From Methylovorus sp. MM2 (GTDB lineage: Bacteria; Pseudomonadota; Gammaproteobacteria; Burkholderiales; Methylophilaceae): a stretch of 64,000 bases of DNA. The stretch lies in assembly GCF_001648895.1 (NCBI RefSeq), contig NZ_LXUF01000011.1, positions 124,001 through 188,000 of the forward strand, written 5' to 3'. The notes under the pieces are model-generated. The model had not been told where the DNA came from, did not search any database, and saw nothing but the letters and a program-made list of their open reading frames with translations. A program made the translations under genes and the position numbers. This document shows positions 12,632 through 48,294 of the stretch, piece by piece (position 1 is the stretch's first letter; each line of letters opens with the position of its first letter).

Positions 12632-13699
12632 TTATGCGGCGCGCTGCTCGGCGCCTGAATGATTTGAACGGACGGCTGGCAGAATGTATTCGCCAACGCG
12701 ATAAGCTTCTTCTAGGCTAGGCACTGCGCCGAGGATGAAATGCGTAATACCTGCACTTGCATAGTCAGATAACGCCTGAATCACTTGCTCGTAATTGCCG
12801 ACTAAACTGGCATCGGCTCCCGTTTGATTGGTAGAAAGGCTCTTCCACAACAATGCACCACCGATAGCACTGGTATGACGACCAGACTGCTCGATAAAAC
12901 GTTGCGCATCGAATCTTGCCTCTTCCTCTGTCTCGCGTGCCAGCACATCGATACGCAGGCCAACATCCAAAGATCTATTTTCGGTAGCAGCCAATGCTTT
13001 TAATTTGCTAACCTCTTTCGTGACGTCTTCTACTGGCTGGGCGGCTAGCACATGCACATCGCCTAGTCTGGCTGATAGCCGATACGTCTCATCACTATGA
13101 CCGGAGAGATATACCGTAGGTACTTTTTGACCTGATAACGGGCCTCTGAAACCACCTTCTAGGACTTCAAAAAACTGCCCTTTGAAGCTGTATGCTGTTT
13201 TGGTGATGACATTACGTGAGACCGTTAAAAACTCTTCGATACGGGTTTGTATATCTTTGGCATCGATAAAGTCACCATCATGATGACGTTGTTTCTCGTC
13301 ACCACCTGTACTGATCTGCCATGCAAACCGGCCACCACTAAAACGTTGGTAACTCACTGCATTTTTGGCAGCATAGACAGCTGATCCGCGTGATGCATCA
13401 AACTCGGTAATCACCGTTAGATATTTTGTACTACGGGTGAGATACCCAGCTACGATCCAGGATTCATCGCCTTGGGGATCATTAGGGATTTGTATGCCAT
13501 CGAACTTGGCCAGTTCCGCTGCTTTTGCGATCTGATGCAAATGATCAAAATAGTTGTAGGTATTACCACGTGGGTCGGTCACACCAGCAGTGAAATACGC
13601 TGAATCAGTATGGTCGCGCTCCCCACGTTTGCGCTTGGCAGCATCCGCATAACGGCCATCACCACTTGTTGGCACTTGCCAGAAAAATTCAATCGCCAT
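12632..13699 (-). CDS. second SsuD-like FMN-dependent monooxygenase
   Basis: A 355-residue LLM-class flavoprotein, paralogous to its neighbour (shared opening MAIEFFWQVPT and C-terminal LEEAYRVGEYILPAVR). It lacks the SsuD RGG segment that carries the mobile-loop Arg: the matching region reads LLWKSLSTNQTGADASLVG. It is therefore likely to have a different substrate or a different step from 11447-12616. Start ATG 13699 has a GGAGATAAC Shine-Dalgarno. First gene behind the sigma-54 promoter at 13742-13757. Confidence 0.83.
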   Translation of the reverse strand: MAIEFFWQVPTSGDGRYADAAKRKRGERDHTDSAYFTAGVTDPRGNTYNYFDHLHQIAKAAELAKFDGIQIPNDPQGDESWIVAGYLTRSTKYLTVITEFDASRGSAVYAAKNAVSYQRFSGGRFAWQISTGGDEKQRHHDGDFIDAKDIQTRIEEFLTVSRNVITKTAYSFKGQFFEVLEGGFRGPLSGQKVPTVYLSGHSDETYRLSARLGDVHVLAAQPVEDVTKEVSKLKALAATENRSLDVGLRIDVLARETEEEARFDAQRFIEQSGRHTSAIGGALLWKSLSTNQTGADASLVGNYEQVIQALSDYASAGITHFILGAVPSLEEAYRVGEYILPAVRSNHSGAEQRAA

Positions 13700-14190: not shown

Positions 14191-14250
14191 ATATAGCTAC
14201 GAGCACCAAATGGTGAGTTGAAGCTTTTAAATCAAATCATAGGGAATACC

Positions 14251-16713: not shown

Positions 16714-16753
16714 TCTGTTATACCGATCCCACAAGGAGCGGTGTCACATTGGG

Positions 16754-16788
16754 CAACTTGGCAGATTACCTTCTGCCAAGTTGTTTTT
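16754..16788 (+). terminator. intrinsic terminator between receptor and ABC genes
   Basis: A perfect 12-bp stem CAACTTGGCAGA / TCTGCCAAGTTG with a 6-nt loop, followed by TTTTT. It follows the receptor gene but precedes the two ABC genes on the same strand. With no promoter seen in the gap, partial read-through may set their lower expression (inference). Confidence 0.88.
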
Positions 16789-16824
16789 CGTTTCACGCTA
16801 CACATTGTTAACGATACTGATCAT

Positions 16825-18609
16825 ATGACTAAATCACACCCTTTACTTCGTTGTCTGGCTTTATACCGATTCATGCCTTATCAGTTCTCGGTGACGGCAC
16901 TTTTATTTATCCTGGTGAATATCGGCGTGGCATGGCAGCTTTGGCTGGTCGGCAAGATCATTGATGATATTCGTCAAGATCGAGCCATCAGTAAACTAAG
17001 CGATGGCACTATTGATCTTTCACAGATCAAATACTGGCTTATTCTGTTGGTCATAGTAGCTTCCATACGTGGGGTTTTGCAGTACATCGGCGGCATTATG
17101 TCGCTGAGTATCGGCCAAAAACTACTCACTATCTTGCGAGACCGCATCTTGACCCAAGTGCAAAGGCTGGACTTGGCCTACCACTGGCAACATGGTATGG
17201 GCGAGATCATCACGCGCACTACCCGCGATGCAGATAAAGTGCGCGATGCGCTCATCAACTTCTGGCGTCAGGTGTTTGAAGCCAGCCTGTGGGTCATTAT
17301 CTCAGTAGCATTACTGTCTTGGTACAACCCTTGGCTCGGAATCGGCACCCTACTATTCACCTTATTAGGTGTATCAATATTCGTCGCACAAACTGACCGA
17401 CTGGTTCAACTTGACCGTGCTGTCGGAGATGCATACGACAAGGTCAATCAGGAACTAAGTGAAGGCGTAAATGGCGTGCGTGTCATCAAATCGTTTGGGC
17501 TTGAACAGCAACGCATCATCGTATTCACTGATTTGGTCACCGTGTTTGTAAATAATGCAAAGGCGGCTCTCGCCTATGCTTCTTCACGCATACCTGTCCC
17601 ACAGATCGTCATCGCGTTTAGTTACGTATGGATATTGGCATTTGGCGCCTATCTCATCCAACAGGGAAAATTAAACGTAGGCGAACTTGTTGCAGCATTA
17701 CTAGTTGCCAACACATTGGTTTTCCGCATCGAAGGGATTGGCCGTGTGATTCAAGTGTTTGCAGATGCGCGCTCATCAGCGGCGCGCATATGGGATCTAT
17801 TAGACGAAAAACCCGGCATCATTTCAGGCAAACAATCCATTTCAGATGGCGCTCTAGGATTGCGCCTGAATAACGTCAGCGTCACTACGCCCAATAAGGG
17901 CAACACTATACTCCAGCATCTGGATTTTGAAGTATCCCCCGGCGAGATTGTCGCTATCGTTGGTGTTACAGGGTCTGGTAAAAGCACATTGGCAGGGCTG
18001 ATACCCCGTCTATTAGAAGTGAACTATGGTGAGGTCTTGATAGGCTCAGCCTGGGCCGGCTGGAAGAATGTAAAACATCTTGAGTTGGATGCATTACGTA
18101 AAAAGGTCCATGTCGTACCACAGGAGAGTTTTTTATTCTCAGACACCCTAGAGGCCAACCTCAGACTGGCAAAACCCAATGCCACCGAGGCAGAGCTAAA
18201 ACGCGCCATCGCGCTGGCTTCAGCAACTGAGGTCCTTGATAACCTAGCACATGGTCTACAAACAAAGATAGGTGATAGAGGCATCACTCTTTCAGGTGGG
18301 CAACGTCAGCGCATCAGCCTGGCTAGAGCTTTTCTGGCGGAGCCTGAGATTCTGATACTGGACGACTCGACCAGTGCACTTGATGCGATCACCGAAAGCC
18401 GTGTGTTGGAGAACATACGTACATTACGCAATGGCTCGGGGCAAGGTATCACTGTCATCCTTATCGCCAGCAAACTATCCACCATTCTCTTGGCAGACCG
18501 TGTCGCGATGCTGCACAACGGCAAGATACACGCACAAGGCACGCATGAGAATCTGGTCTCTAACAATGCAGAATACCGCGATCTAGTAGGAGTCGAACAT
18601 GGCAAATGA
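16825..18609 (+). CDS. ABC transporter half, exporter fold, degenerate ATPase
   Basis: Fused membrane (six TM helices, about 15-310) and nucleotide-binding domain. Walker A GVTGSGKST and signature LSGGQ are canonical. The catalytic Glu after Walker B is Asp (LILDDSTSALD) and the H-loop His is Ser (LIASKLSTI). This half therefore contributes a non-hydrolytic site, matched by the degenerate signature of the partner gene. Start chosen at ATG 16825: earlier codons lie in the terminator hairpin. Overlaps the next gene by 11 bp. Could export a product or, like YbtPQ/IrtAB, import a ligand delivered by the TonB receptor. Confidence 0.88.
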   Translation: MTKSHPLLRCLALYRFMPYQFSVTALLFILVNIGVAWQLWLVGKIIDDIRQDRAISKLSDGTIDLSQIKYWLILLVIVASIRGVLQYIGGIMSLSIGQKLLTILRDRILTQVQRLDLAYHWQHGMGEIITRTTRDADKVRDALINFWRQVFEASLWVIISVALLSWYNPWLGIGTLLFTLLGVSIFVAQTDRLVQLDRAVGDAYDKVNQELSEGVNGVRVIKSFGLEQQRIIVFTDLVTVFVNNAKAALAYASSRIPVPQIVIAFSYVWILAFGAYLIQQGKLNVGELVAALLVANTLVFRIEGIGRVIQVFADARSSAARIWDLLDEKPGIISGKQSISDGALGLRLNNVSVTTPNKGNTILQHLDFEVSPGEIVAIVGVTGSGKSTLAGLIPRLLEVNYGEVLIGSAWAGWKNVKHLELDALRKKVHVVPQESFLFSDTLEANLRLAKPNATEAELKRAIALASATEVLDNLAHGLQTKIGDRGITLSGGQRQRISLARAFLAEPEILILDDSTSALDAITESRVLENIRTLRNGSGQGITVILIASKLSTILLADRVAMLHNGKIHAQGTHENLVSNNAEYRDLVGVEHGK

Positions 18610-20443
18610 TATTCGCGGCCCAGCGCATCTTAATGATATAGAGATAGAGCAAGCTTTGGCCAAACAGAAGCTAGACCGCAATATGTTCTGGCGCATCTTG
18701 CCTTTATTGAATCAGGTAAAAGGCAAGATAGCCGCCGTCATATTGCTTGAAATCATTTTAGTCGGTGTGATCTTCATACGTCCATGGTTCCTGCGGGAGA
18801 TCATCGATTATGGTTTCATCACTACAGCACAGGGCATTATCCTCAATACACCGCTCTTAACTTGGATGGCATTGGCTACTGCGCTCACGTGGGTGATACG
18901 CTTTGGTATCGCAGGCGGATCACAATACTTGGCCGGAAATGCGGCGATCACAATATTGAATGACCTACGGATAAAAGTGTTCAGCCATGTGCAAGCACTG
19001 AGCGTTAGGTATTTTGATCAGACCAAGGCTGGCCGCATCATCTCAAGAGCTGACCGCGATGTGGATATGCTCGAACCTCTATTGATACAAGGGCCACCAG
19101 AAGTACTTTCAGCAGTTCTACGCTTGGTCGTGGCTTCTGCTGCCTTATGGTGGATATCGCCAAAACTGTTTCTGGCACTTGCCAGCATCGTGCCATTTCT
19201 CGTGATTGGCACATGGCTATTCAAGCGCATATCAGAAAAGAATTGGGCAAAGGTCGCTGAAGCACGTGCGAGATTCACGGCACATCTGGTTGAGACTGTC
19301 TCCGGTGTGCGTATCATCAAACAAACCGTGAATGAAGCCGCGAATGCAAAACGATATCGCGTGTTGCTGGATGATTTCAATACCACGTTGATCAAGGGCA
19401 ATATCCGCTCTAGCTGGTTCTTGCCTCTCACACAGGTACTCAGTGCTGTAGGCATGGCACTTTTACTGTTAGTTGGCAGCATAGGCATCGCATCACATGA
19501 GATGTCGATAGGGCAACTAGCGCAAAGTCTCTTCTATGTGCAGCTTTTTCTCGGCCCCCTACAGGAGTTAAATGACCTATTCGAGCGTTACTCATCGGGC
19601 GCATCTTCGGCACAACGTATATTTCTGCTGCTCGATACCAAACCTGAGATCAACGACCCTGATTATCCAAGTGAGCCCAAACAAACATCCGGTGAAGTGG
19701 AGTTCTCTAATGTGGTATTTGGTTATGGAGCCAATAGTGATAAACCGGTCATCAAGAATCTCAGCCTGCATATTCCCGCAGGTGAGGTTTTAGCGATTGT
19801 CGGGCCAACAGGCCATGGCAAAAGTACCTTGGTGCAGCTACTCACCAGATTCTACGAAGTGCAGGCTGGTAGCGTATTGATCGATCAACAGGATGTGCGC
19901 GAATATGCACAACAGACATTGCGGCGCAAAGTCGGTGTCGTATTGCAGGATAACGTACTGTTTTCAGGTAGCGTATTGCATAACCTGCGGATGGCAGCTC
20001 CTGATGCCAGTGATGATGCCTTAATTGCAGCAGCTCGTGAGCTTGGCGCAGATGAGGTACTTGAACGGCTATCAGATGGCTACCAGACAGAAGTAGGACC
20101 ATTGGGTGCATTTTTAAGTCATGGACAGCGGCAACTGGTTTGCCTTGTCCGCGCTTATTTAGCCAACCCATCAGTATTAGTCCTGGATGAAGCGACATCT
20201 GCAGTAGACATCCATACGGAGCGGCGCATACAAGCTGCATTCCGACGACTATGCGAAGGGCGTACAGCAATCATTATCGCGCACAGATTGGCAACGATAC
20301 GTGATGCAGATCGTATCGCCGTGATCTGGAATGGTGAAGTCGCTGAACTAGGCAACCATGATCAATTAATACGACAAGGCGGCGCATATTCAAGGTTGTA
20401 TCAGGCCTATGAGGAAGCTTCTGTGTCAGCGCAACCAACATAG
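18599..20443 (+). CDS. ABC transporter half, exporter fold, partner subunit
   Basis: 614-residue TM-NBD half transporter. Walker A GPTGHGKST, Walker B with catalytic Glu (LVLDEATSAVD) and H-loop His (IIIAHRLATI) are intact, but the signature is LSHGQ instead of LSGGQ. In a heterodimer its signature faces the Walker motifs of 16825-18609, so all deviations fall in a single site and the other site is fully canonical. That pattern is diagnostic of heterodimeric type IV transporters. AGGAG ribosome site before ATG 18599; overlap with the upstream gene implies coupling. Confidence 0.9.
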   Translation: MANDIRGPAHLNDIEIEQALAKQKLDRNMFWRILPLLNQVKGKIAAVILLEIILVGVIFIRPWFLREIIDYGFITTAQGIILNTPLLTWMALATALTWVIRFGIAGGSQYLAGNAAITILNDLRIKVFSHVQALSVRYFDQTKAGRIISRADRDVDMLEPLLIQGPPEVLSAVLRLVVASAALWWISPKLFLALASIVPFLVIGTWLFKRISEKNWAKVAEARARFTAHLVETVSGVRIIKQTVNEAANAKRYRVLLDDFNTTLIKGNIRSSWFLPLTQVLSAVGMALLLLVGSIGIASHEMSIGQLAQSLFYVQLFLGPLQELNDLFERYSSGASSAQRIFLLLDTKPEINDPDYPSEPKQTSGEVEFSNVVFGYGANSDKPVIKNLSLHIPAGEVLAIVGPTGHGKSTLVQLLTRFYEVQAGSVLIDQQDVREYAQQTLRRKVGVVLQDNVLFSGSVLHNLRMAAPDASDDALIAAARELGADEVLERLSDGYQTEVGPLGAFLSHGQRQLVCLVRAYLANPSVLVLDEATSAVDIHTERRIQAAFRRLCEGRTAIIIAHRLATIRDADRIAVIWNGEVAELGNHDQLIRQGGAYSRLYQAYEEASVSAQPT

Positions 20444-20599: not shown

Positions 20600-20615
20600 T
20601 GGCATGGAATCTGCC
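20600..20615 (+). promoter_or_regulatory. sigma-54 promoter of desulfinase gene 1
   Basis: TGGCATGGAATCTGCC, GG and GC 12 bp apart, 62 bp upstream of the ATG at 20678. Paired with the repeat at 20458-20506. Confidence 0.83.
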
Positions 20616-20677: not shown

Positions 20678-21709
20678 ATGTCAGAAAATACAAAAATCGA
20701 GAATCTTTGGTACACAAGATGCCCTGTACCGACACCACTAGGCCTTGCCGCACGTGAAGGCTGGATCGAAAAAGAATTCGCCCCCGATAACATCGGCATC
20801 AAGACGCTACAAGACACACAAGACCCTGAACTGCGCGAATCTCACTATGATCATCGTCTTCCCCACTCTTTCCGTCAGGGTGGTAATGTGCCTGCGATCT
20901 GGGCACGAGCCAACGGCACAGATACACGTGTTATCGGTCTTAACTGGGTTGATGAAGCACAACTTGTCGTTACTCTACCGAACTCTGGTATCTCACGGCC
21001 TGAAGACCTTAAAGGCAAAAAGATCGCACTGCCATTGAATGACATCAGTATCGACCATCAACGTGCTAGTGCATTGCGCGGCATTGTCGTCACACTTGAA
21101 TCAGCAGGATTATCAGCCAAGCACGATGTCGAGTTGGTAGACCTACCAGTTCCTGTCAGTGAGATCGGATCTGGCTGGTCTTCTCAACGTGTGGCTTATG
21201 AAACAGAATTTACAGCACTCAAGAACGGAACAGTCGATGCGATCTATGTCAAAGGGGCACGTGGTGTAGAAGAAGCGTATAAACACGGTGTGACTATCGT
21301 TTACGATGTGCGCAACCATCCTGATCCTATCGCACGCTCAAATAACAGTGCTCCACGCCCGATCACGGTAGATGGCGCATTGCTTCGTGAGCGCCCTGAT
21401 CTGGTCGCGCGTTTTCTTAGCCGGGTGTTAGATGTGAGCGACTGGGCAGCGAGCCATGAGGCTGAGACTGTGGCTTATATCGCACGTGAATCGCACTCAC
21501 AAGATGAATGGGTGCGTAAGGCGTATGGCAACGACATCCATTTGAAACAGGGCACCGATCTCGATCAAAAATCGATCGCAGCGCTATCTGCTTATAAGGA
21601 CTTTTTGCTTGAATGGGGATTCCTAAAAGCGGACTTCGACGTGTATGCATGGATCGATCCTAACCCGCTGAATGATCTACTGAAAGCACGCAATAAAAAA
21701 GCTGCTTAA
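20678..21709 (+). CDS. DszB-like sulfinate desulfinase, paralogue 1
   Basis: 343-residue cytoplasmic protein of the DszB (2'-hydroxybiphenyl-2-sulfinate desulfinase) family, which has a periplasmic-binding-protein fold but cleaves C-S bonds. Start ATG 20678 has CGGAGA 6 nt upstream; no signal peptide, arguing against a transport role. The catalytic triad of DszB (Cys27, His60, Arg70) is matched by Cys15 in YTRCPVP, His56 and Arg66; the His-to-Arg spacing of 10 and the following GG are identical. Predicted to release sulfite from a sulfinate made by the LLM monooxygenases. Monocistronic between the sigma-54 promoter at 20600 and a strong terminator. Automated pipelines may label it an ABC substrate-binding protein. 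Confidence 0.78.
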   Translation: MSENTKIENLWYTRCPVPTPLGLAAREGWIEKEFAPDNIGIKTLQDTQDPELRESHYDHRLPHSFRQGGNVPAIWARANGTDTRVIGLNWVDEAQLVVTLPNSGISRPEDLKGKKIALPLNDISIDHQRASALRGIVVTLESAGLSAKHDVELVDLPVPVSEIGSGWSSQRVAYETEFTALKNGTVDAIYVKGARGVEEAYKHGVTIVYDVRNHPDPIARSNNSAPRPITVDGALLRERPDLVARFLSRVLDVSDWAASHEAETVAYIARESHSQDEWVRKAYGNDIHLKQGTDLDQKSIAALSAYKDFLLEWGFLKADFDVYAWIDPNPLNDLLKARNKKAA

Positions 21710-21725
21710 TCAAGCTTAAATGCTG

Positions 21726-21758
21726 CAGGCCTGCTTTAATAAGCGGGCCTGTTTTTTT
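21726..21758 (+). terminator. rho-independent terminator of desulfinase gene 1
   Basis: CAGGCCTGCTT, loop TAAT, AAGCGGGCCTG (one wobble), then seven Ts. Confidence 0.9.
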
Positions 21759-21802
21759 GTTATCTTACAGAAGCTTTAACTCAATCCCTTATTTGTCTAG
21801 GT

Positions 21803-22882
21803 CTAGGCGATTCTTCTGACATTATCTTGCACAGCTTGTAGTGGGCGCGAATCGATCCATGACGCCGTATCAAAATCTTTGGGAATAAATTCATGTGCTA
21901 ACAAGAAGTCTTTGGCTATATTTAAACCCTCTATCGACTCTTCAGCCAGATTAATCGTCATGTTGAGATGAAAATCCGCGCCTAGGACCCTTAGCAACCA
22001 TGCTTCAGACCATCCTGTTTCACGCGCAATCAGCCTTAGACTTTCCTCCTGATTCTTTTTGGCCCACAACCCTGCTTCCACAACACGTTTAAGAAATCGA
22101 TTGACGACATCGGGATGTTTTTCAAGCGTATCCGCATTGACGGTCAAGGGACGAGGTGCACAGTTGCTAATACGAACGTAAGTATCAGGATGAAACCCCA
22201 GGTTGAATATGACTTTTGCGCCTAACAGGTGTGTGATTTCGGCACCTCGGACATCTTTGACATAGATGGCATCCACTTCACCTCGCACTAAGGCATACAC
22301 CTCGTTCACGTAACCATGCCGCGCCTGCCCCCATCCGCCTGGGCGAGCCACTTCATTGACCGTGATATAGGCAGAATCAGGGAGATCTACCAGCTCAATA
22401 TCTTTAAGACCCAATCCATCATGCTCTAACGCAACATAGAACGCGCGAACGGCCGCAGCACGGTTATAGTCGTTGCTGACCTTTGCTTCATTATCATGTT
22501 GGGGTATACCGACCTTACGACCACGCAGGTCTTTGATGGTGTTGATGCCTGAATTAGGCAAACTGATGATGGCCTGAAACTCATCCGTCCAGGTTAGCCC
22601 AATCACACGTGTATCACTGCCATTCGACTTGGCCCAGATTGCAGGGGTATTACCACCCTGCCGGAACGAGTTAGGCAAGTGATGATCAAAATGTGAAAAT
22701 AGCTCAGAAGGCTTATCTGACTCATGCAGTGATTTTATGGAGATAGCATCTGATTTGAACTCCTGTTCAATCAAGCCCAACTGAATCGCCAAACCTAAAG
22801 GCGTCGGCACGGGTGAACGTGTATAGATGAATGTCTCAGTTGTATGATTATTGCCACTCAACTGATTGCCGACTAATTTCAT
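21803..22882 (-). CDS. DszB-like protein, paralogue 2, catalytic Cys replaced by Ser
   Basis: 359 residues, no signal peptide, same family as 20678-21709 and 28913-29950. The nucleophile position reads YTRSPVP: Ser23 (codon TCA, bases 22814-22816) instead of Cys. His64 and Arg74 are kept with the family spacing, as are RQGG, VRGEVDAIYVK and the C-terminal region. In DszB the Cys is essential, so this copy is probably not a classical desulfinase; it may bind a sulfinate/sulfonate, act on another substrate, or regulate. Last gene of the six-to-seven-gene import operon read from the promoter at 27543. Confidence 0.78.
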   Translation of the reverse strand: MKLVGNQLSGNNHTTETFIYTRSPVPTPLGLAIQLGLIEQEFKSDAISIKSLHESDKPSELFSHFDHHLPNSFRQGGNTPAIWAKSNGSDTRVIGLTWTDEFQAIISLPNSGINTIKDLRGRKVGIPQHDNEAKVSNDYNRAAAVRAFYVALEHDGLGLKDIELVDLPDSAYITVNEVARPGGWGQARHGYVNEVYALVRGEVDAIYVKDVRGAEITHLLGAKVIFNLGFHPDTYVRISNCAPRPLTVNADTLEKHPDVVNRFLKRVVEAGLWAKKNQEESLRLIARETGWSEAWLLRVLGADFHLNMTINLAEESIEGLNIAKDFLLAHEFIPKDFDTASWIDSRPLQAVQDNVRRIA

Positions 22883-22919
22883 GCATGTCCCCTATGTTTT
22901 TATTATTAAACGTTGCGGT

Positions 22920-23720
22920 CTAAGCAGCACGAAGATTACGCCAGCGGAAAAGATGCCGCCCCACCCTGCTCAACAAGAGATTCATACCAAAACCAACGAT
23001 ACCGATAAGAATGGTAACAACGATCAGGATATCCATACGTGCTGCGACTTCTGCATTCATCATCATATTGCCTAACCCACTCCCCGCATTGAACAATATC
23101 TCACTGCCGATAGTAGATAGCCATGCGAAAGCCAGTGCAAAAGCGACACCGGTGAATATGTTGGGCAAGGCGGCGGGTAATAATATCCTGAAAAATAGCT
23201 GCACTCGTCCTAATTTCAGCACATCACCTACTTCACGATACTTGGTTTCAACCTGACGTAAACTCTCATAGGTAGCCAATACCAATGGGTAGAATGCTGC
23301 CAAACATACGATAAACAGTTTTGCCGTATCGCCATTACCCAGCCACAAACCAAACAGGGGAACCAGCCCCATGAGCGGCACTTGCCTGAATATGTGGTAG
23401 ATAGGGCCAATAGATACATCGACGATCTTTGATGTAGCCATCAATGCGCCTATCGTAAATCCTAATACACCACCGATCGCTAAACCGGTCAGTGCGCGTA
23501 GCAAACTCGCTACCAGGCTAGTCTGCAATTCTTGCGTAGCGATAACTTCAAGTAGCGCGTGATACATCTGCTCAATGGATGCAAAGGCATAGGCATTCTC
23601 CACACTCTGACGCGACATATATTCCCAGAAAATCAGCAGCAATACAGGCACCACTGCACCTTTTGCGAGCTGAATCAGCTTTTCCTGATTCAATAGATTC
23701 TTATTGATAGATACTGACAT
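22920..23720 (-). CDS. SsuC-like ABC permease 1
   Basis: Binding-protein-dependent inner-membrane permease of the sulfonate/nitrate/taurine group. About six TM helices; the EAA loop reads EVGDVLKLGRVQLFFRILLP (about 180). Start ATG 23720 (MSVSINK) preferred over a longer frame that overlaps the next gene; it leaves a 19-bp gap. Probably heterodimerises with the permease at 23740-24546 and uses the ATPase at 26578. Confidence 0.9.
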   Translation of the reverse strand: MSVSINKNLLNQEKLIQLAKGAVVPVLLLIFWEYMSRQSVENAYAFASIEQMYHALLEVIATQELQTSLVASLLRALTGLAIGGVLGFTIGALMATSKIVDVSIGPIYHIFRQVPLMGLVPLFGLWLGNGDTAKLFIVCLAAFYPLVLATYESLRQVETKYREVGDVLKLGRVQLFFRILLPAALPNIFTGVAFALAFAWLSTIGSEILFNAGSGLGNMMMNAEVAARMDILIVVTILIGIVGFGMNLLLSRVGRHLFRWRNLRAA

Positions 23721-23739
23721 CTGCTTCAACCCCAAACAA

Positions 23740-24546
23740 TCATGCGACACGCCACGGGATAAGATTAGCCTCACCCCATTTGAATAAACGATCTATCGTA
23801 AAACCTATCGCGCCAGTCAGTACGACACCCACCAAAACGATATCAAGCCGGAACATATCACGCCCCATCTGCATCATCTGCCCGATACCGCTATCTGCCA
23901 CCAATAATTCAGAGGCCACCAGAATAGTCCACGAGCGGGCAAAAGCGATACGCAACCCAGTCAACACAGGTGGCAATATCGCTGGGATAACAAGTTTTCT
24001 ATACACCGTCAGTGTCGGCAATTGGTATGCCTGCGCTACCTCAAAATAAGGTTTAGGCACACCTTTTGTTGCTTCATATGAAGCAAGTGCCACAGCAAGA
24101 AAAGCCGCATTGATAACGATGGCGATCTTGAATATCTCATCGATACCGAGCAACAAGATAAAGATAGGAATAAGCGCGATGATAGGCACTTGCCTCACTG
24201 CCTGAAACAGGGGGTGAAAGTAATCTTCCACATTTTTAGATAATGCCATCAATATGCCAAATAGCAGCCCGGCAAATGCCCCTATCGAATAACCAAAAAC
24301 CAGACGTGAAAGACTTTTAAGCAGATGCTCTTGCAGATCTCCCGATGCCACCAGCTCTTGAAAACTATCCAATATCTGCAACGGTGAAGCCAGAAGCTGA
24401 GGCGAGATCAACTGAAGGTGCGTAACCCAAGCCCAAACCAGCAGCAATATGATCGGCGAGATAAAGCTCACCAAACGCAACCTGTTGTAGATGACCTTGC
24501 CCGCCACGCGATTCAGTCCGATCGCTGCCCGTATTCCTATACTCAC
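23740..24546 (-). CDS. SsuC-like ABC permease 2
   Basis: 268-residue permease of the same family with EAA loop EVAQAYQLPTLTVYRKLVIP (about 170) and the conserved RQVPIIALIPIFILLLGI segment. Two different permeases beside one ATPase indicate a heterodimeric channel, unlike E. coli SsuC. Inner membrane; presumably works with the periplasmic protein 27769-28851. Confidence 0.9.
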   Translation of the reverse strand: MSIGIRAAIGLNRVAGKVIYNRLRLVSFISPIILLLVWAWVTHLQLISPQLLASPLQILDSFQELVASGDLQEHLLKSLSRLVFGYSIGAFAGLLFGILMALSKNVEDYFHPLFQAVRQVPIIALIPIFILLLGIDEIFKIAIVINAAFLAVALASYEATKGVPKPYFEVAQAYQLPTLTVYRKLVIPAILPPVLTGLRIAFARSWTILVASELLVADSGIGQMMQMGRDMFRLDIVLVGVVLTGAIGFTIDRLFKWGEANLIPWRVA

Positions 24547-24571
24547 AATATCTCTTTCTCAGCGGCTTTTA

Positions 24572-24979
24572 TTATTCAGCATTCGTGATCACAGCAAGCC
24601 TTGTAATGCCAGCCCGCTCAATAGCCGCCATAACTTTAGCCACCGTGCCGTAATTGACCGCTTCATCTGAGCTCAGGTGGAGTGTTAAATCAGGATTGGC
24701 CGCATGCAACGCTTTAAGTTCTGCTTCAACACTCGATACCGGTAACTCCTGCTTATCCAGATATACCTTGCCAGCAGCATCTACACTCACAGTCACCGGT
24801 TTTTTCGGTTCAGCCGGTTGTGTCGCTGCTGTCTTAGGCAAATTGACGGTAATCGCATTATTCAATACCGGGATCGTCACAATGAATGCCACCAGCAATA
24901 CCAGCATCACATCGACAAGCGGCGTAATGTTGATCTCGCTCAGCACTTCATCACTATCATTACTGGAAGAGAAAGCCAT
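24572..24979 (-). CDS. exbD: ExbD-like proton-channel subunit
   Basis: 135 residues, one N-terminal TM helix with the proton-conducting Asp in NITPLVDVMLVLLVAF, then a periplasmic domain. Works with ExbB and TonB to energise outer-membrane transport. Its start codon overlaps the last base of the exbB stop. Embedded in an ABC import operon, so probably dedicated to the receptor at 14251. Confidence 0.93.
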   Translation of the reverse strand: MAFSSSNDSDEVLSEINITPLVDVMLVLLVAFIVTIPVLNNAITVNLPKTAATQPAEPKKPVTVSVDAAGKVYLDKQELPVSSVEAELKALHAANPDLTLHLSSDEAVNYGTVAKVMAAIERAGITRLAVITNAE

Positions 24980-25689
24980 TATGCGAACGCCTCTTTTTTG
25001 AGATTAACGACGGAAGGAGACTGATCCACCCCTTTATGGCGGAATGTCACTTTGCGTGATAGGTTGATCAAGTCTGCAGCAAGATCATCCAGATCACCAC
25101 TGGCAAGCTTCAAGCGTCGAGTGAAGAAGTTATAAGCCAATACCGCAGGCACAGCCACTGCAATACCTAAACCAGTCGCCACAAGCGCTTCACCGATGGG
25201 GCCAGCTACGACTTCAAGACTAGCAGAACCAAGTTTGCCGATATCGGTAAGCGCATGCATGATGCCCCATACCGTACCGAACAAGCCAACGAATGGGGAA
25301 GTGCTGCCGATACTAGCAAGCACAGCTAAGCCACTCTCAAGACTACGACGCTCTTTAAGGATTTGCTGGCGCAATGAACGTTCCAGTAGATCTTGGCGAT
25401 CACCGCTATGCTCAAGATCATGTGGGCCTTGAGTATCAGCATCACGCAATGCATTAAAGCCAGCAGTCGCAACGCGTGCAGCTGGACCATTGAATTCATT
25501 GATAGAAGATGCCGTCAATAGATCAGGTGCACTCCAGAATGCTTTTTTATAGCGCTTATTCTGATAACTGGCACGCAGATTCTGTATCCCCTTGACCAAT
25601 AGCAGCGTCCAAGTCACGACAGAGAATGCGATCAGCGTCCACAAGACACTATCGACGATTAAAGAGGTTGAAGAAGTAATATTAGACAT
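24979..25689 (-). CDS. exbB: ExbB/TolQ-like proton-channel subunit
   Basis: MotA/TolQ/ExbB family protein with three TM helices and the conserved GLFGTVWGIMHAL segment and APIGEALVATGLGIAVAVPAVLAYN-type helices. Start ATG 25689 (MSNITSS) follows AAGGAAATCATC; upstream codons extend into tonB. Forms the inner-membrane ion channel with ExbD. Confidence 0.93.
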   Translation of the reverse strand: MSNITSSTSLIVDSVLWTLIAFSVVTWTLLLVKGIQNLRASYQNKRYKKAFWSAPDLLTASSINEFNGPAARVATAGFNALRDADTQGPHDLEHSGDRQDLLERSLRQQILKERRSLESGLAVLASIGSTSPFVGLFGTVWGIMHALTDIGKLGSASLEVVAGPIGEALVATGLGIAVAVPAVLAYNFFTRRLKLASGDLDDLAADLINLSRKVTFRHKGVDQSPSVVNLKKEAFA

Positions 25690-25709
25690 GATGATTTCCT
25701 TAAAAATAG

Positions 25710-26537
25710 TTATCTGGATAACCTGAATTCGATGGGTACGGTTGCCCATCCATCAACAGGCGTACTGCCACGTTTCGCAGGGGCGAATACCCAACCCTTA
25801 ACGACCTCCAACGCTGCTTCATCCAACGTTTTTCGGCCACTTGATTCTTTGAGCTCTATAGTGCCGGGCTTGCCATTTGCCAACACACGCACACGCAATA
25901 TCACTTTGCCCTCCCAGCCCTGCCGCTGTGCGAATGCAGGATATTCCGGTGCAGGATTATTCAAATAACCCGCATACCCTGAAGCCTCTGTCACAGGCTC
26001 CTCTTTCGGTGCAGGCGGTGCTGGTGGGGGCGTTGGTACCGCTGCTACAGGTTCGCTGGTCTTTTGAGCCGTTGTATTTTCGTGGACAGTCACATCCTGC
26101 GGTGTCACGGTTTCTGCTGGTGGTGTACGCAGCGCAGACACAGGTTTCGCTGGCTGGGGTTTAGCCTCAAGCTTCTGTGGCAATGGTTTTGGCGGTTCTA
26201 TAGGTTGTGGCGGAACTACGACCGGCTTCACGAACTCAACGATCACTTCATTTTTCTTAGGCGGTGCAATGGGCTCCGATGATGAACGAAGATACCCTTC
26301 AACACCGGCAAAATGGGTTACGACAACAAGACCTATCAACACTGCGTAATCCCGTTTTTTCAACCCAGCAGTTTTGACTTCGCCCTCTACCTGCCTGTGT
26401 TTATAACTTTCAAATAAGTCCGTTGCGCTATAAATCGTTTTCGCCAAGGCTTGCTTAACTGGTGTAAAAGCCTCTCCGGAAAAATCCAGTGATGGGCTCA
26501 AGCCGGAACTCAGTCTTTGATTCAAAACACTAGACAT
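25710..26537 (-). CDS. tonB: TonB energy transducer
   Basis: 275 residues. A cytoplasmic N-terminal extension of about 65 residues is unusually long; one TM helix follows (about 66-82), a Pro-rich periplasmic spacer (about 88-190) and the TonB C-terminal domain with YPAFAQRQGWEGKVILRVRV and the final GWATVPIEFRL. Connects ExbBD to the receptor at 14251. AGGAGG ribosome site upstream of the ATG. Confidence 0.92.
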   Translation of the reverse strand: MSSVLNQRLSSGLSPSLDFSGEAFTPVKQALAKTIYSATDLFESYKHRQVEGEVKTAGLKKRDYAVLIGLVVVTHFAGVEGYLRSSSEPIAPPKKNEVIVEFVKPVVVPPQPIEPPKPLPQKLEAKPQPAKPVSALRTPPAETVTPQDVTVHENTTAQKTSEPVAAVPTPPPAPPAPKEEPVTEASGYAGYLNNPAPEYPAFAQRQGWEGKVILRVRVLANGKPGTIELKESSGRKTLDEAALEVVKGWVFAPAKRGSTPVDGWATVPIEFRLSR

Positions 26538-26577
26538 GGCCTACCTCCTTCCAATCATTAAACTTATACATATAAAA

Positions 26578-27417
26578 TCAAACGAAATCTGTCAGCAGAT
26601 CTTCTTTGATGCACTGAAAATCTGGGTTCGAGCGTATACGTGGCCGCGCCAATCTCACTGGCACGATACGTTTAATACGACCAGGATGAGACTGCATGAC
26701 CACCACGCGATCACCTAGAAAAACGGCTTCTTCTACATCATGAGTCACGAGTATCGTCGTCAGCCCTTCGTGCTCCCAAAGCCGCTCTAGCTCTTGTTGA
26801 AGCTTCAGGCGTGTCAATGCATCCAACGCTGCAAATGGTTCATCCAGCAGCAGCAATTGTGGTCTTAATACCAATGCCCGCGCGATAGCGACACGCTGCG
26901 ACATCCCACCAGATATCTGGTGCGGATAAGCGTGCTCAAAACCGGTCAGCCCTACTAACTCGATCTGCGCCTTTACGCGTTCTTTTCTTTCCGCTTTCGG
27001 TACATTGGTCGATGCAAAAGCCAGCAGGATATTTGCCTCAACGGTCAACCAGGGAAATAATCGATGCTCCTGAAACACGATGCCACGGCTAAGGTCTGTA
27101 CCTTCGATGCGCTTGCCTTGATATACAATCGCACCTTCATAACCAATATCCAAACCAGCAATCAAACGGAGCAATGTCGACTTTCCGCAACCACTAGCCC
27201 CCACAATAGAGATGAACTCACCAGACTGCACATCCAGATTAATCGCCTCAAGCACCTTTAATTCACTACCACTCAAAGCATAACTTTTAGCCACAGACTC
27301 TATTTTTAGTGCAACGGGTTTTGCATGCAGCTCAGGCACACTATTACCCTCAAAGACATTGCCTCGGGTAATCGCACTTTTCCTAAAATCCAACACAGTG
27401 TTCGATGAACTCATCAT
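26578..27417 (-). CDS. SsuB-like ABC importer ATPase
   Basis: 279 residues with Walker A GASGCGKST, signature ISGGMSQRVAIARAL, Walker B LLLLDEPFAALD and the H-loop TILVTHDVEEA, characteristic of the nitrate/sulfonate/taurine importer ATPases. A 30-residue N-terminal extension precedes the domain. First gene of the minus-strand operon tonB-exbB-exbD-permeases-desulfinase 2, starting 126 bp below the sigma-54 promoter at 27543. Confidence 0.93.
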   Translation of the reverse strand: MMSSSNTVLDFRKSAITRGNVFEGNSVPELHAKPVALKIESVAKSYALSGSELKVLEAINLDVQSGEFISIVGASGCGKSTLLRLIAGLDIGYEGAIVYQGKRIEGTDLSRGIVFQEHRLFPWLTVEANILLAFASTNVPKAERKERVKAQIELVGLTGFEHAYPHQISGGMSQRVAIARALVLRPQLLLLDEPFAALDALTRLKLQQELERLWEHEGLTTILVTHDVEEAVFLGDRVVVMQSHPGRIKRIVPVRLARPRIRSNPDFQCIKEDLLTDFV

Positions 27418-27542
27418 TTCCTTCTTTTCTACTTTTGGCAGTACTTATTTTGGTAGTACTTACGAATGGCAACTAAAAAAATCGATTACACAAATCAGAT
27501 ATGCATATCACCACTCATCATTAATCTGATTAGTTATATATT

Positions 27543-27558
27543 GGCAATAGCCGTGCCA
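27543..27558 (-). promoter_or_regulatory. sigma-54 promoter of the importer/TonB operon
   Basis: Minus strand TGGCACGGCTATTGCC, a perfect match to TGGCACG-N4-TTGC; the best of the six in this locus. Confidence 0.92.
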
Positions 27559-27631
27559 GATTTAAAAATGATTTTTTATCAATTAAATTCAGCGATTTAA
27601 TACATTTACACGGAATATTTAGGTTAACCTC

Positions 27632-27680
27632 TGTTGCTGATGCAACAACATCCGGCTTTTAAATTGCTGCACTTGCAACA
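27632..27680. promoter_or_regulatory. activator-site pair for the importer/TonB operon
   Basis: TGTTGCTGATGCAACA (27632-27647, perfect) and TGCTGCACTTGCAACA (27665-27680, one half-site mismatch), 33 bp apart, centred about 83 and 116 bp upstream of the promoter at 27543. Confidence 0.75.
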
Positions 27681-27713
27681 GGGTGATGTACTTGCTTCTA
27701 ATTCATGTGGCCG

Positions 27714-27754
27714 CTGTCATCCGATGACAACTAATGTTTTTCACCGGATGACAG
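27714..27754. terminator. hairpin after the binding-protein operon
   Basis: CTGTCATCCG (27714-27723) and CGGATGACAG (27745-27754) pair perfectly; the left part also forms the palindrome TGTCATC-C-GATGACA. It ends the minus-strand unit 27769-30683. There is no T run, so termination is possible but not certain. Confidence 0.45.
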
Positions 27755-27768
27755 GGTGATTGCTGAAA

Positions 27769-28851
27769 CTACTTTTGAGCGGTAGCTACTTTCGCATCTG
27801 GTGCTTTAGAGGCTGCCCAGAAATTCTCAATATTCAGATCTTTGAGTGCCTGATTAACAAAACGTGGATTAAGCAGCTTTTGTACATCGACATCATTACG
27901 AATCAAACCTGAGCTCTTGGCATAAGCGATCGTGTGTTTATAGTGTTCGACCATGGCATCGTCATATAAAGGTGACCACCGATTCTTCCAAGACACCTCA
28001 TCTGCTTCATAATCACGACGTATGACACTCTCAGGTTGTACTTTGCTTGCATAATCCCTAATGTATTGATCGCGGTTCTTATCTTGCGCTGTCCAGTAGC
28101 TGGTCTTCACATAAGCGTTAACGATCACCTGCGTAATCTCAGGATACTTTTGGACAAATTCATTGTTTGCCCATAATCCACCTCTTAGCTTCTGATCGGT
28201 TAATGCAGTTTTGGTTGACCAGATGATCTTGCCAACCCCTCTATCTTCAAGGTTATAAGCGTCATTCAAGCTAAAGAATGCATCCACGGTACCGCTAGCA
28301 AGCGCTGCCGAACCTACCTGAGGATTAACATTGACGATCTTGAAATCTTTTAATGTCAATCCATTCGCTTCCGCCAAACTGGCAAAGGTAGCTTCCCAAG
28401 GGCGGCCACGATGCAAGGCGACACGCTTACCTTTCAAGTCCAGAATAGTCTTGGCAGTAGAGTTCTTAGGCACCACAAGATAAGAGTTACCATTACTCCC
28501 CCAAGGTGCTACCAATTGTACGGTGGGCTGTGCCGAATTAAGAATGATGGGCGGCAAGTCACCATAAGCAGCAAAATCGATCGCTTTATTAACAAATGCC
28601 TCATTGATGATAGGCCCTACCGCAGCACCGGATGCAGGTACCCATTCGACCTTGATACCTTTTTTGGCGAGCGCTTCTTCCAAGCCACCTTGAGCGTTCA
28701 ACGCATCAACACCCATATACGTTGTTTTACCCGCAATGTTATAAGACACTGCACCGATACGCACAACCTTAGGTTGCTCTTCAGCCGAATAGGCATTTGC
28801 CGCTAATACTCCTATTAACGCAAATACCCCGAGAAAAATTTTCTTAACCAT
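27769..28851 (-). CDS. SsuA-like periplasmic substrate-binding protein
   Basis: 360 residues with a clear signal peptide (MVKKIFLGVFALIGVLAANAYSA, cleaved near residue 23) and an NMT1/SsuA-type binding domain (DLKGKRVALHRGRPWE at about 125; VNAYVKTSYW at about 235). It is the only protein of the cluster exported to the periplasm as a solute receptor, and should feed the permease pair at 22920-24546. Similarity is to aliphatic sulfonate binding proteins. Confidence 0.88.
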   Translation of the reverse strand: MVKKIFLGVFALIGVLAANAYSAEEQPKVVRIGAVSYNIAGKTTYMGVDALNAQGGLEEALAKKGIKVEWVPASGAAVGPIINEAFVNKAIDFAAYGDLPPIILNSAQPTVQLVAPWGSNGNSYLVVPKNSTAKTILDLKGKRVALHRGRPWEATFASLAEANGLTLKDFKIVNVNPQVGSAALASGTVDAFFSLNDAYNLEDRGVGKIIWSTKTALTDQKLRGGLWANNEFVQKYPEITQVIVNAYVKTSYWTAQDKNRDQYIRDYASKVQPESVIRRDYEADEVSWKNRWSPLYDDAMVEHYKHTIAYAKSSGLIRNDVDVQKLLNPRFVNQALKDLNIENFWAASKAPDAKVATAQK

Positions 28852-28912
28852 ATGCTACCTCTTCAAATAAATTAACGCTTTAAGCATCAAGTAGATCCAG
28901 ATACTCAAAAGA

Positions 28913-29950
28913 TCATGCAGCTTGCGCTTCTTCATGCAACCATCTGTTTGCTTCGTCCAATGCTGAGCTGTCGACCCATGCATCGAGATCGAAATCCCTA
29001 TCCAGCAAGCCATGCACCAACATGAAATCCTTTTGCTGACGGAATAATTCGATACGTTCGGCAGACAATGTCGGCGCCAGATCCAGATGGAAATTATCCC
29101 CATAAGCGGTGGTCACTCCATCGGACCCTGCATAGGTCTCACTTTCCAATATCTCTCTCACACCGGTGACATTAGTCTTTGCCCACTCCGCTGCACGTAG
29201 TGTTTGGTATAAGAATCGCACAACTAGATCAAAGTGGTTTTCAAGCAAATGCTCATGCACAGTGATTGGTCTTGGCGTTCCATTATTCACACGAGATGAC
29301 AAATCAGGATATTCATCGAGATTAATGCCGACGACTGCACCAAGTTGCTTTGCACGATCAACAGCCGACGCACCTTTCACATACACTGCATCGACTTTCC
29401 CCGATATCAGGTAATGAAGTCCTGACCAAAGACCACCCAGATCACGTCTGGCACCTTGGCCCGAGCCAACCTCAACAAGCTTTACATTATCCAAAGTCAG
29501 CCCCGCTACTTTTAAAGCCCCCTTGTATCCATGCAAGCTCATACCACGTGCAATACTGCTCCCACGCGTATGATCTTTTAATGGATGATCAACGAATGCC
29601 GGAAGTGCAAGCCTTAAGCCTTTCAAATGCTCGGGTTTTGTAATCCCTGAATCAGGACGCACAAGGATTGCCTGCCATTCATCGATCCATGTCAGACCAA
29701 TCAAGCGCGTAGGTGCTGCCTGCGCACGTGCAGCAATTGCCAGCAGATTGCCACCCTCACGGATCAGGGTAGGTAATTGATGGTCATAATGATGGCGCGC
29801 CAGATCATTGTTATCTTGCAATGTCGAAAGCTTGATGCCATCTTTTGAGAACTCATCGCCCAACCAACCTAATTTATAGGCTATCCCCGTTGCTGTCGGC
29901 ACCGGGCAACGGGTGAACCATATCTCATCTAATTTCGCTGGATTAGTCAT
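28913..29950 (-). CDS. DszB-like sulfinate desulfinase, paralogue 3
   Basis: 345 residues, no signal peptide. The DszB catalytic triad is complete: Cys15 in FTRCPVP, His54 and Arg64 with spacing 10 followed by EGG. Cotranscribed with the aldolase-like gene 29961 (10-bp gap) and the binding protein 27769. Together with paralogues 1 and 2 it indicates a family expanded inside one locus, presumably for different sulfinates or steps. Confidence 0.78.
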   Translation of the reverse strand: MTNPAKLDEIWFTRCPVPTATGIAYKLGWLGDEFSKDGIKLSTLQDNNDLARHHYDHQLPTLIREGGNLLAIAARAQAAPTRLIGLTWIDEWQAILVRPDSGITKPEHLKGLRLALPAFVDHPLKDHTRGSSIARGMSLHGYKGALKVAGLTLDNVKLVEVGSGQGARRDLGGLWSGLHYLISGKVDAVYVKGASAVDRAKQLGAVVGINLDEYPDLSSRVNNGTPRPITVHEHLLENHFDLVVRFLYQTLRAAEWAKTNVTGVREILESETYAGSDGVTTAYGDNFHLDLAPTLSAERIELFRQQKDFMLVHGLLDRDFDLDAWVDSSALDEANRWLHEEAQAA

Positions 29951-29960: not shown

Positions 29961-30683
29961 TCAATAACTATCGTTAGCAGGCACTAGACCAAGTGCTTGA
30001 GCCTGATCATAGATCTTGGCCATCTTCCACTGCTGAGTCAGCACGCCAGGACCATAATCACGAGAACCCCCTAATGAGTCAGCAAGGTTCTGTATTAACG
30101 CACCCTCTTCCAACAGCAAAATAAATTCCGCCGTCTTACGCAAACCTTGTTTGCCCCAAACAGTAGAACCCCCGTTAGCTTCAAGAATCGCAGTGTTATG
30201 CGGATTCAATTTGATCTGATCGAGAATAAACTCTGCTTCTTGCTGGCGACGATCAATATAGATCGGTATTTCGCGGATCAGGTTATATCGCTGCACAGGT
30301 ACATAGCGAATAGGCAATGGGCGATGCGCTTGTGCCCAAGCACCTAGGTAGGGTGAATGCACATGAGACACAGTGGTAATATCAGGATGTTGTTGGAATA
30401 TCTTGATATACCGCGCAGAACCTGCGCCGCCACTACCTTGGTATACCGTGCCGTCAAACCCCACAACAGTGGCTTCAAGCTTTTTATGTTTATTGAACGG
30501 ACCGGGATAATTCACAATCACTACTTTATCCTCACCCGGCACTCTTTCCACAAAACCAACAGTGCCGTTAGCTGTGATGGTATTGGTCTCTCTAAATACA
30601 TCGAAGGCCAATTGTGATTCTTCCAGTACATTGGCAACAAAAGCATCCAGCCCGTTTTTTGCATCAATCGCAGTCACACTCAT
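29961..30683 (-). CDS. class II aldolase/epimerase-fold protein
   Basis: 240 residues of the class II aldolase/adducin family. Start ATG 30683 chosen because AAAGG lies just upstream inside the longer frame. The HxH zinc pair is His107/His109 (HVHSPY). The third His, in the HSHGPFAWG motif of L-ribulose-5-phosphate 4-epimerase, is Gly here (ANGGSTVWG), and the usual acidic residue before the first pair is not evident. Either the metal is held differently or this is a non-canonical lyase. First gene behind the sigma-54 promoter at 30749; role in sulfur use unknown. Confidence 0.75.
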   Translation of the reverse strand: MSVTAIDAKNGLDAFVANVLEESQLAFDVFRETNTITANGTVGFVERVPGEDKVVIVNYPGPFNKHKKLEATVVGFDGTVYQGSGGAGSARYIKIFQQHPDITTVSHVHSPYLGAWAQAHRPLPIRYVPVQRYNLIREIPIYIDRRQQEAEFILDQIKLNPHNTAILEANGGSTVWGKQGLRKTAEFILLLEEGALIQNLADSLGGSRDYGPGVLTQQWKMAKIYDQAQALGLVPANDSY

Positions 30684-30748
30684 CTTTAACCCTTTCATCT
30701 TTATTTATATTGATTACGTATTCGCTTACCTACGTATAAAGATGACTT

Positions 30749-31105: not shown

Positions 31106-32263
31106 ATGAGTGACTTCCCAAATATGCGAACTCAACATTGGAATTATGATTACCATGATGATGATCACAGACATGCTGCCGAAAGTGCAGAGCATGTGAT
31201 CACGCATCCCAATCCATCTGCCGTCAGCCTATCGATTCGGGCGAGCGCACTGGTATTTAGCGACCCCAAATCGCAAAACCTACTCAGCCTGATCGAGAAG
31301 ATAGCCGCCAGCAATGCCACTGCATTAATCATTGGCGAGACGGGCACGGGCAAAGAGCTGATAGCTCGGCATATACACGCTTTAAGCAATCGCAAAAGCG
31401 GCCCATTTCAGGCAATCAATTGCGGCGCATTTTCTGAAACATTGGTAGAGAGTGAGCTGTTCGGCTATGAGCGCGGCGCGTTCACAGGTGCAACGCAATC
31501 TAAAATAGGCTGGTTTGAAACCGCGAATGGCGGCACACTGTTTCTTGATGAGATCGGCGACTTACCGCAATCCACACAAGTAAAGCTATTACGCGTGCTA
31601 CAAGAAAGAGAAGTTGTGCGTGTTGGTGCTCGCAAGGCCACACCAATCGACGTGAGACTTATCGCCGCAACCAATGTCAATCTTGAAGAAGCCGTAAGAG
31701 CCGGGCGTTTCCGTGAAGACTTATACTATCGAATAAAAGTCATCCCAATCGACCTTCCACCGTTACGTGAGCGCCGTGGAGACATCTTACCGCTAGTAGA
31801 GCATTTCTTGACTGTCTATAAGAACAGGTTGCAGACATCAACGCCACAACTAGCGCCTGAGACTATCCGGTTGATGCTGGAATATCCATGGCCAGGCAAT
31901 ATTCGCGAACTGGAAAATGTAATCCACCGTGCCCTACTGGTGGCCACATCCTCTACGCTGCAACCACGCGACCTGAATTTGCCTGCGATATACAGCTTGC
32001 AGTCAAAAGAGGTCGCATCTGCCGAGACACCAGAAATTACCGTATCGGGCAGCAGCCAGAGTGCGACAACATCGCGGCTAGAGCATGTTTTGAACGACCT
32101 ATTCGAGAATACGCCACCGAATCTCTACGAATTGATCAATGCCATCACCGTGCAAAAAGCGTATCAATTTTGCAATCACAACCAAGTCCATACCGCAAAG
32201 CTACTAGGCATTAGCCGCAATATCCTGCGCGCCCGCTTAAAAGAACTTAACCTAATCGCTTAA
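31106..32263 (+). CDS. SfnR-like sigma-54-dependent activator
   Basis: 385-residue enhancer-binding protein without a receiver domain, as in SfnR of Pseudomonas (sulfone use). The AAA+ domain carries Walker A GETGTGKE (about 78), the sigma-54 contact loop ERGAFTGA (about 127) and Walker [12 protein letters not shown] (about 145). The C-terminal Fis-type HTH (about 340-383, [20 protein letters not shown]) should bind the TGTTG-N6-CAACA repeats of the locus. The N-terminal 45 residues are His/Asp-rich. No sigma-54 promoter precedes it, consistent with separate control of the regulator. Confidence 0.92.
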
Positions 32264-32318: not shown

Positions 32319-32870
32319 TTATGCCACCAATGCTTGCGATGTTTCCCTATTTAATAAATACACAGCCTGATCAACCGCAATATCGATACGAGCCTTGATC
32401 GCATCACTTGTAAGTTGATAATCAGTAAACTCCGTATCTTTTGCGTAAATCGCAGTCGGCACTGTGTAGATGCCAAAGAAACTAGCTAATGTTCGTAGTT
32501 GAAAATCCAACACCAGCGCATGCTGGTCACTCCCACCAGTTGCAGCAAGAATCGCCGTTTTACCAGCCAGACTTTTAGGGTCCAGCAAATCAAAAAAGTG
32601 TTTCAGCAATCCAGTATAGGAAGCCTTATATATCGGGCTGGCAATCACGATCAGATCAGCACTGAGCAGTTTTTTATACTCAACAGCCAGTGCCTCAGGA
32701 AATTGATTGTAAGAAGTCGTGCTACCCAGCACGGTAGCAATCTGCGCAATATCAATGATTTCTGCAGGCGCATGCAGTTTTTGCGAAGCCTTAGCAACGA
32801 TAACTTCCACTAACGCTTTGGTGCGCGATGGTTGCGTGATGCTCCCCGAAACCCCAACAATATGTGTCAT
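32319..32870 (-). CDS. SsuE/MsuE-like NAD(P)H-FMN reductase
   Basis: 183-residue flavodoxin-like reductase that supplies FMNH2 to two-component monooxygenases. Family motifs: VGVSGSITQPSRT (phosphate loop, about 5), ASPIYKASYTGLLKHFFDLL (about 76) and ATGGSDQH. Expected partner of the LLM enzymes at 11447 and 12632. Own sigma-54 promoter at 32909. Confidence 0.92.
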   Translation of the reverse strand: MTHIVGVSGSITQPSRTKALVEVIVAKASQKLHAPAEIIDIAQIATVLGSTTSYNQFPEALAVEYKKLLSADLIVIASPIYKASYTGLLKHFFDLLDPKSLAGKTAILAATGGSDQHALVLDFQLRTLASFFGIYTVPTAIYAKDTEFTDYQLTSDAIKARIDIAVDQAVYLLNRETSQALVA

Positions 32871-48226: not shown

Positions 48227-48245
48227 CTAGGCATCGAAAATGAAA

Positions 48246-48280: not shown

Positions 48281-48294
48281 CTCGTAAATCTTAA

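Follow-up and report, generated by a model that had tools for sequence, protein, structure and literature searches.

A selected Cys-to-Ser paralogue of DszB in a putative sigma-54-controlled organosulfur uptake locus of Methylovorus sp. MM2

A 64-kb stretch of the Methylovorus sp. MM2 genome (NZ_LXUF01000011.1, positions 124,001 to 188,000; hereafter the window) carries three genes for homologues of the desulfinase DszB, named here copies 1, 2 and 3 in the order of their positions. In copy 2 the catalytic thiol has been changed to a serine while nearly all else has been kept, and both its silencing and its retention are well supported. The explanation that we propose, which in our judgement could equally well prove right or wrong, is that the locus is an organosulfur scavenging system in which copies 1 and 3 would be desulfinases and copy 2 a silenced binding protein that senses or gates the importer. 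What is known of DszB comes mostly from actinobacteria and the biodesulfurization of fossil fuels. The new part is a recurrent, selected branch of putative pseudoenzymes among DszB-type proteins within proteobacterial organosulfur uptake regulons; in open-licence papers, nothing relevant was found on DszB-like paralogues in such loci.

The preliminary description of this DNA had proposed three DszB paralogues from their Cys, His and Arg residues, and the positions and residues were confirmed, with the start of copy 1 at the ATG of 20678 and an alternative upstream GTG possible at 20645. The copies share 36-48% pairwise identity, and a sequence search of the PDB places DszB (2de2/2de3/2de4) first for each of them (E 2e-10 to 1e-13). 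When copy 1 is aligned with DszB, its Thr13, Cys15, His56, Arg66 and Gly68-69 correspond to Ser25, Cys27, His60, Arg70 and Gly72-73, and the His-to-Gly stretch contains no gaps. Equivalents of His60 and of Arg70-x-Gly-Gly are present in all three copies, whereas that of the catalytic Cys27 is present in copies 1 and 3 (Cys15) and absent from copy 2, which has Ser23 (codon TCA) at this position and retains the remaining active-site residues (Thr21, His64, Arg74 and Gly76-77). Because it lacks the catalytic cysteine, copy 2 counts here as a DszB homologue only, outside the enzyme class. The Cys-His-Arg combination itself is not a product of chance: the window and the fetched loci together yielded 166 distinct family open reading frames (ORFs), of which 159 could be scored at the three active-site positions, and these comprise 124 Cys-His-Arg, 17 Ser-Ile-Arg, 8 Ser-His-Arg and 5 Gly-His-Arg forms together with a few singles.

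The consequences of such changes have been studied in DszB itself (PMC6100217). There, C27S abolishes activity, yet the C27S crystals still bind substrate; the Cys-to-Ser replacement lifts the computed barrier from 31.4 to 37.4 kcal/mol, H60Q costs about 17-fold in activity, and the Arg-x-Gly-Gly motif is thought to be structural. Judged by these mutant data, desulfinase activity is possible for copies 1 and 3, and this is also the best reading of their sequences; by the same analogy, copy 2 probably does not act as an ordinary desulfinase.

AlphaFold models of copy 1 (predicted local distance difference test, pLDDT, 92.7; predicted template modelling score, pTM, 0.90) and copy 2 (pLDDT 87.5, pTM 0.86), made from 27-member alignments, were compared with known structures. 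The best fold match of both predicted structures is the DszB C27S protein with bound substrate (2de3; Z 34.1), onto which copy 2 fits at 3.2 Å over 326 residues and copy 1 at 2.8 Å over 316 residues. Substrate-free DszB ranks next, followed by the periplasmic SsuA 3uif at Z 25.9-26.1, and a Foldseek search with the copy 2 model agrees on DszB as the best match. The assignment to DszB therefore holds by sequence for all three copies and by predicted fold for copies 1 and 2. The likeness to DszB covers the full-length fold (Z 32-34), the missing signal peptide, the nearby FMNH2 (reduced flavin mononucleotide) monooxygenases and flavin reductase and, in copies 1 and 3, the Cys/His/Arg-x-Gly-Gly active site. 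On the other hand, identity is only about 24%, threonine stands where DszB has Ser25, copy 2 has serine in place of Cys27, and the genes lie in a TonB/ATP-binding cassette (ABC) uptake locus under sigma-54 control.

The three proteins had also been described as lacking a signal peptide, unlike the substrate-binding protein (SBP) of the same locus, and hydrophobicity bears this out: the best 10-residue Kyte-Doolittle mean at the N-terminus is about 1.0-1.2 in copies 1-3 and 2.83 in the SBP. Read from their sequences, copies 1-3 are cytosolic proteins without an export signal. They share with SsuA-type periplasmic binding proteins (3uif, 2x26) the overall fold (Z about 25-26) and a related sulfur chemistry, but differ from them in this respect, in the catalytic cysteine of copies 1 and 3, and in scoring far under the curated SsuA cut-off (TIGR01728; 45.6-91.0 bits against 163.5). 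Since the SBP of the locus also falls under this cut-off (104.4 bits), a low score by itself decides nothing on copies 1-3.

Ser23 is shared by close relatives, in which its absence had been named as an observation that would count against a genuine change. In each of the four Methylophilaceae orthologues, which share 71-76% identity with copy 2, the residue is serine, encoded by TCA, TCT, TCT and TCC, which makes 5/5 copy-2 genes of this family. In congeneric pairs, the ratio of nonsynonymous to synonymous substitution rates (dN/dS) is 0.044-0.046 for copy 2, close to the values of copy 1 (0.034-0.044) and copy 3 (0.033-0.053), indicating purifying selection. Furthermore, the copy-2 clade retains 42 of the 48 columns whose conservation among Cys forms is 90% or higher, and C23S is the sole clade-fixed change at these columns that the Cys sister lineage does not share (the Cys column being invariant among Cys forms by definition); the other clade-wide change, at Asp210, is also found in that lineage. 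When genomes of the class, 369 in all, were searched with copy 2 at E 1e-60, only the host genome was returned, so that the clade is not widespread at that depth.

Whether the Ser form is a conserved clade had been asked in the preliminary description. With the trait column left out of tree building, copy 2 and its orthologues form a clade with full support, whose sisters are Cys proteins of Alphaproteobacteria. Elsewhere in the tree, Burkholderia, Paraburkholderia, Massilia and Jeongeupia make up another Ser clade, which lies within other Cys proteins. Placing all Ser forms in one old clade was rejected by the approximately unbiased (AU) test (p-AU 1.2e-6), the model of which shares any long-branch pull, some Ser rows (L046, L014) being on long branches. 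On this phylogeny, Cys-to-Ser arose more than once, independently in the copy-2 clade and in the Burkholderia-type clade. The Ser members of Burkholderia and Paraburkholderia have additionally changed the active-site Thr to Ala and His to Ile while retaining Arg, and their gene is the first of an SBP-permease operon, beside an intact Cys copy. The cysteine has been replaced in other ways as well: Duganella loci (L051, L068, L071, L073, L074) have a Gly form with the motif RGSIPT or RGSVPT, adjoining a Cys copy and a binding protein, and Solimonas has an Ala form. An origin of copy 2 by local duplication of copy 1 was rejected, since the sister lineage of copy 2 consists of the alphaproteobacterial Cys proteins; by their placement in the tree, copies 1-3 are old paralogues of different clades and not a local triplication. 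Repeated loss of the catalytic cysteine with the remainder conserved offers a natural experiment on how one binding-protein fold may move between receptor, enzyme and sensor.

The locus that houses the three genes (Table 1) is most simply read from its promoter pattern as a single sigma-54 regulon with its own activator. The strict sigma-54 pattern TGGCAY-N5-YTGC, searched on both strands of the window, has exactly six matches against 0.85 expected, and each of the locus's six transcription units has one of them just upstream on its own strand; no further strict site occurs anywhere else in the window on either strand. A sigma-54 site also precedes the ATPase gene in eight related loci (L005, L104, L105, L106, L108, L109, L110, L112), and in several related loci such sites stand before the receptor, aldolase, monooxygenase or MsuE genes, too. 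One site per unit and the conservation of these sites make one regulon the simplest reading. It resembles the Pseudomonas SfnR/sfnG-msu regulon in its sigma-54 promoters, its MsuE-type reductase, its SsuD/SfnG-like monooxygenases and an activator in which no separate N-terminal sensor domain was found by domain architecture (the likeness of the activators being one of architecture only), and differs from it in adding DszB-type paralogues and TonB-dependent import.

Table 1 Features of the locus (positions in the window)
Feature	Position	Strand	Remarks
FMNH2-dependent monooxygenase, SsuD/SfnG-like	11447..12616	-	
FMNH2-dependent monooxygenase, SsuD-like	12632..13699	-	
TonB-dependent outer-membrane receptor	14218..16713	+	
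Exporter-fold ABC permease/ATPase gene pair	16741..20443	+	between TonB-dependent receptor and copy 1
Sigma-54 -24/-12 site of copy 1	20600..20615	+	
Copy 1, DszB-type protein, probable sulfinate desulfinase (from sequence)	20678..21709	+	Cys15-His56-Arg66, no signal peptide
Copy 2, DszB-type protein	21803..22882	-	Ser23 replacing catalytic Cys, His64 and Arg74 retained; final gene of importer operon
ABC importer permease A, SsuC/SaoP-like	22920..23774	-	
ABC importer permease B	23740..24546	-	from sequence, position and conserved company; 35 nt overlap with permease A
ExbD/TolR-type protein	24572..24979	-	
ExbB/TolQ-type protein	24979..25749	-	
TonB	25710..26537	-	
ABC importer ATPase	26578..27417	-	279 amino acids, no fused C-terminal regulatory domain
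Sigma-54 site of ATPase to copy 2 operon	27543..27558	-	
Periplasmic sulfonate-binding protein (SBP)	27769..28851	-	signal peptide; closest solved structure 3uif (SsuA, Methylobacillus flagellatus)
Copy 3, DszB-type protein	28913..29950	-	Cys15-His54-Arg64; flanked by aldolase-like gene and SBP
Class II aldolase/adducin-like protein	29961..30698	-	
Sigma-54 activator	31106..32263	+	AAA+ and Fis-type helix-turn-helix, SfnR-like architecture
MsuE-type flavin mononucleotide reductase	32319..32870	-	207.8 bits against cut-off 212.5
Remaining sigma-54 sites (starts)	13757(-), 14175(+), 30764(-), 32924(-)		

Two of the minus-strand units contain a DszB-type gene: one runs aldolase, copy 3, SBP, and the importer operon runs ATPase, TonB, ExbB, ExbD, permease B, permease A, copy 2. 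Spacing is -40 to 61 nt within each of them and 351 nt between them. Copy 2, which begins 37 nt past permease A and ends the operon, is open over its whole length and preceded by a good Shine-Dalgarno sequence. The closest relatives with a matching layout are Methylovorus, Methylophilus and Methylobacillus, which places the host in the Methylophilaceae; at the Methylobacillus-type loci L008, L109 and L110, a second exporter-fold ABC pair occupies the place of copy 2 in the importer operon.

For this locus we infer desulfinase activity, ligand binding and gating as parts of one sigma-54-controlled organosulfur scavenging system. The TonB-dependent receptor and the SsuA-type importer would take up a sulfonated or sulfone-type compound, which the FMNH2 monooxygenases, fed by the MsuE-type reductase, would convert, and copies 1 and 3, as cytosolic desulfinases, would then free sulfite from a sulfinate intermediate. 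Copy 2, a putative pseudoenzyme maintained by selection, would bind a sulfinate or sulfonate ligand in the cytosol without cleaving it; its cytosolic location, its otherwise intact ligand site, the strict selection and its place in the importer operon all point to such binding. As it is the product of the last gene of that operon, its most likely role would be to sense or gate uptake, for which the cytosolic regulatory domains of NrtC and CmpC are the closest analogy. These substrate-binding-like domains are involved in nitrate- or PII-dependent inhibition of their transporters, so that related importers, NrtBCD and CmpBCD, are acted on by cytosolic domains of the same fold (PMC13249358, PMC6603209). 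Copy 2 is like the NrtC/CmpC domains (8wm7, 9uak, 9uai; Z about 19-20) in being a cytosolic SBP fold tied to an importer, and the importers belong to one broad family. It differs from them in its identity of about 13%, in being a separate gene where those domains are fused to the ATPase (the ATPase here having no extension), and in that those domains are not derived from an enzyme with an active-site cysteine. A more specific version is a tentative possibility that we rate well below the general one: a DszB-type desulfinase would repeatedly have been turned into a cytosolic sensor by Cys-to-Ser, the silenced copy reporting intracellular sulfinate or sulfonate and gating the importer or the sigma-54 activator. 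If this version is true, a stand-alone silenced desulfinase provides feedback on organosulfur uptake in an arrangement that is new, and evolution has reused the very Cys-to-Ser change by which crystallographers trap substrate. Copy 2 is a candidate for the internal signal of sulfonate uptake.

Several points weigh against this proposal. The preliminary description had placed copy 2 in the importer operon, which is correct, and had taken the placement as a pointer to a binding or sensing role, which is a weaker argument than it seemed: copy 3 is also importer-linked (10 nt downstream of the aldolase gene and 61 nt upstream of the SBP gene), as are several Cys relatives of copy 2 in loci L058 and L062, so that operon position alone does not set copy 2 apart. 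In raw counts, 16 of the 20 Ser forms adjoin an importer versus 15 of the 82 Cys forms, but when relatedness is taken out, only four independent pairs are left and a sign test shows no significant association of a lost cysteine with an adjacent importer; with so few events, the tie is not statistically established. SsuD frees sulfite from sulfonates directly, and the monooxygenases of this locus are closer to SsuD, which leaves the sulfinate intermediate a prediction. In addition, the retention of His64 makes the loss in copy 2 less drastic than that in Burkholderia, no site on the ATPase at which copy 2 would dock is known to us, and the literature yielded no activity or binding data on family members.

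Among other explanations, it is conceivable but rather unlikely that copy 2 is still an enzyme, with an alternative active site in which Ser23 gives a proton or serves another reaction, either on another substrate or of decarboxylase or hydrolase kind. Its retained His64, Thr21, Arg74 and Gly76-77, together with the 42 conserved columns, would fit such a role, and its fold matches include Thi5, MqnD and a phthalate decarboxylase, enzymes of the same fold with other chemistry. Nevertheless, the identical change inactivates DszB and raises the computed barrier (PMC6100217), and the further loss of His and Thr from the independent Ser clade in Burkholderia is what is expected once catalysis has gone. 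We consider it improbable that, instead of being a transport sensor, copy 2 joins copy 1 or 3 in a heteromeric desulfinase, as a non-catalytic subunit or an allosteric partner. This would agree with the finding that Ser forms, in loci with enough flanking DNA, are accompanied there by intact Cys copies, and with the promoters of one type that copies 1-3 share; against it, many Methylophilaceae loci (L008, L109, L110) have Cys copies and no Ser form, and copy 2 and copy 1 are in different operons.

Whether any of the copies is a desulfinase can also be questioned, as all three might be cytosolic ligand-binding proteins of the SsuA/NMT1 kind with the cysteine in some other role. The low structural identity to DszB and the rank of SsuA as the next fold match speak for this, as does the annotation of family members as 'ABC transporter substrate-binding protein'. 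We find it decidedly doubtful, since Cys-His-Arg is retained across most of the family and DszB ranks above SsuA by sequence as well as by fold. Moreover, on pSymA of Sinorhizobium meliloti (L114 7968-15406), two Cys members adjoin an acyl-CoA-dehydrogenase-family gene and an NtaA/DmoA-family monooxygenase gene, which we take to be the gene kinds of DszC and DszA, respectively, and this company supports the enzyme reading of Cys members. Many proteins carrying the 'ABC transporter substrate-binding protein' label can now be placed as DszB-type in proteobacterial organosulfur uptake loci. Finally, a drifting remnant or a sequencing error, suggested by the change of a single catalytic codon, has practically no chance left and is ruled out by four independent orthologues with varied Ser codons, a dN/dS of about 0.045 and a frame open over its full length behind a good ribosome-binding site.

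Three further observations were made alongside this work. The pSymA stretch as a whole resembles a Dsz-like pathway on a symbiotic plasmid. On a plasmid of Variovorax paradoxus VAI-C (L113 8019-15957), a Cys-type relative lies near a sulfurtransferase gene and a gene of the cysteine dioxygenase family, a neighbourhood that might point to a sulfinate derived from cysteine. Within the window, positions 48001-57265 are probably an integrated element, with low guanine-cytosine content up to about 56000 and, among ORFs read by eye, a methylase-like gene, a replication-like protein and an integrase-like ORF (56171-57265).

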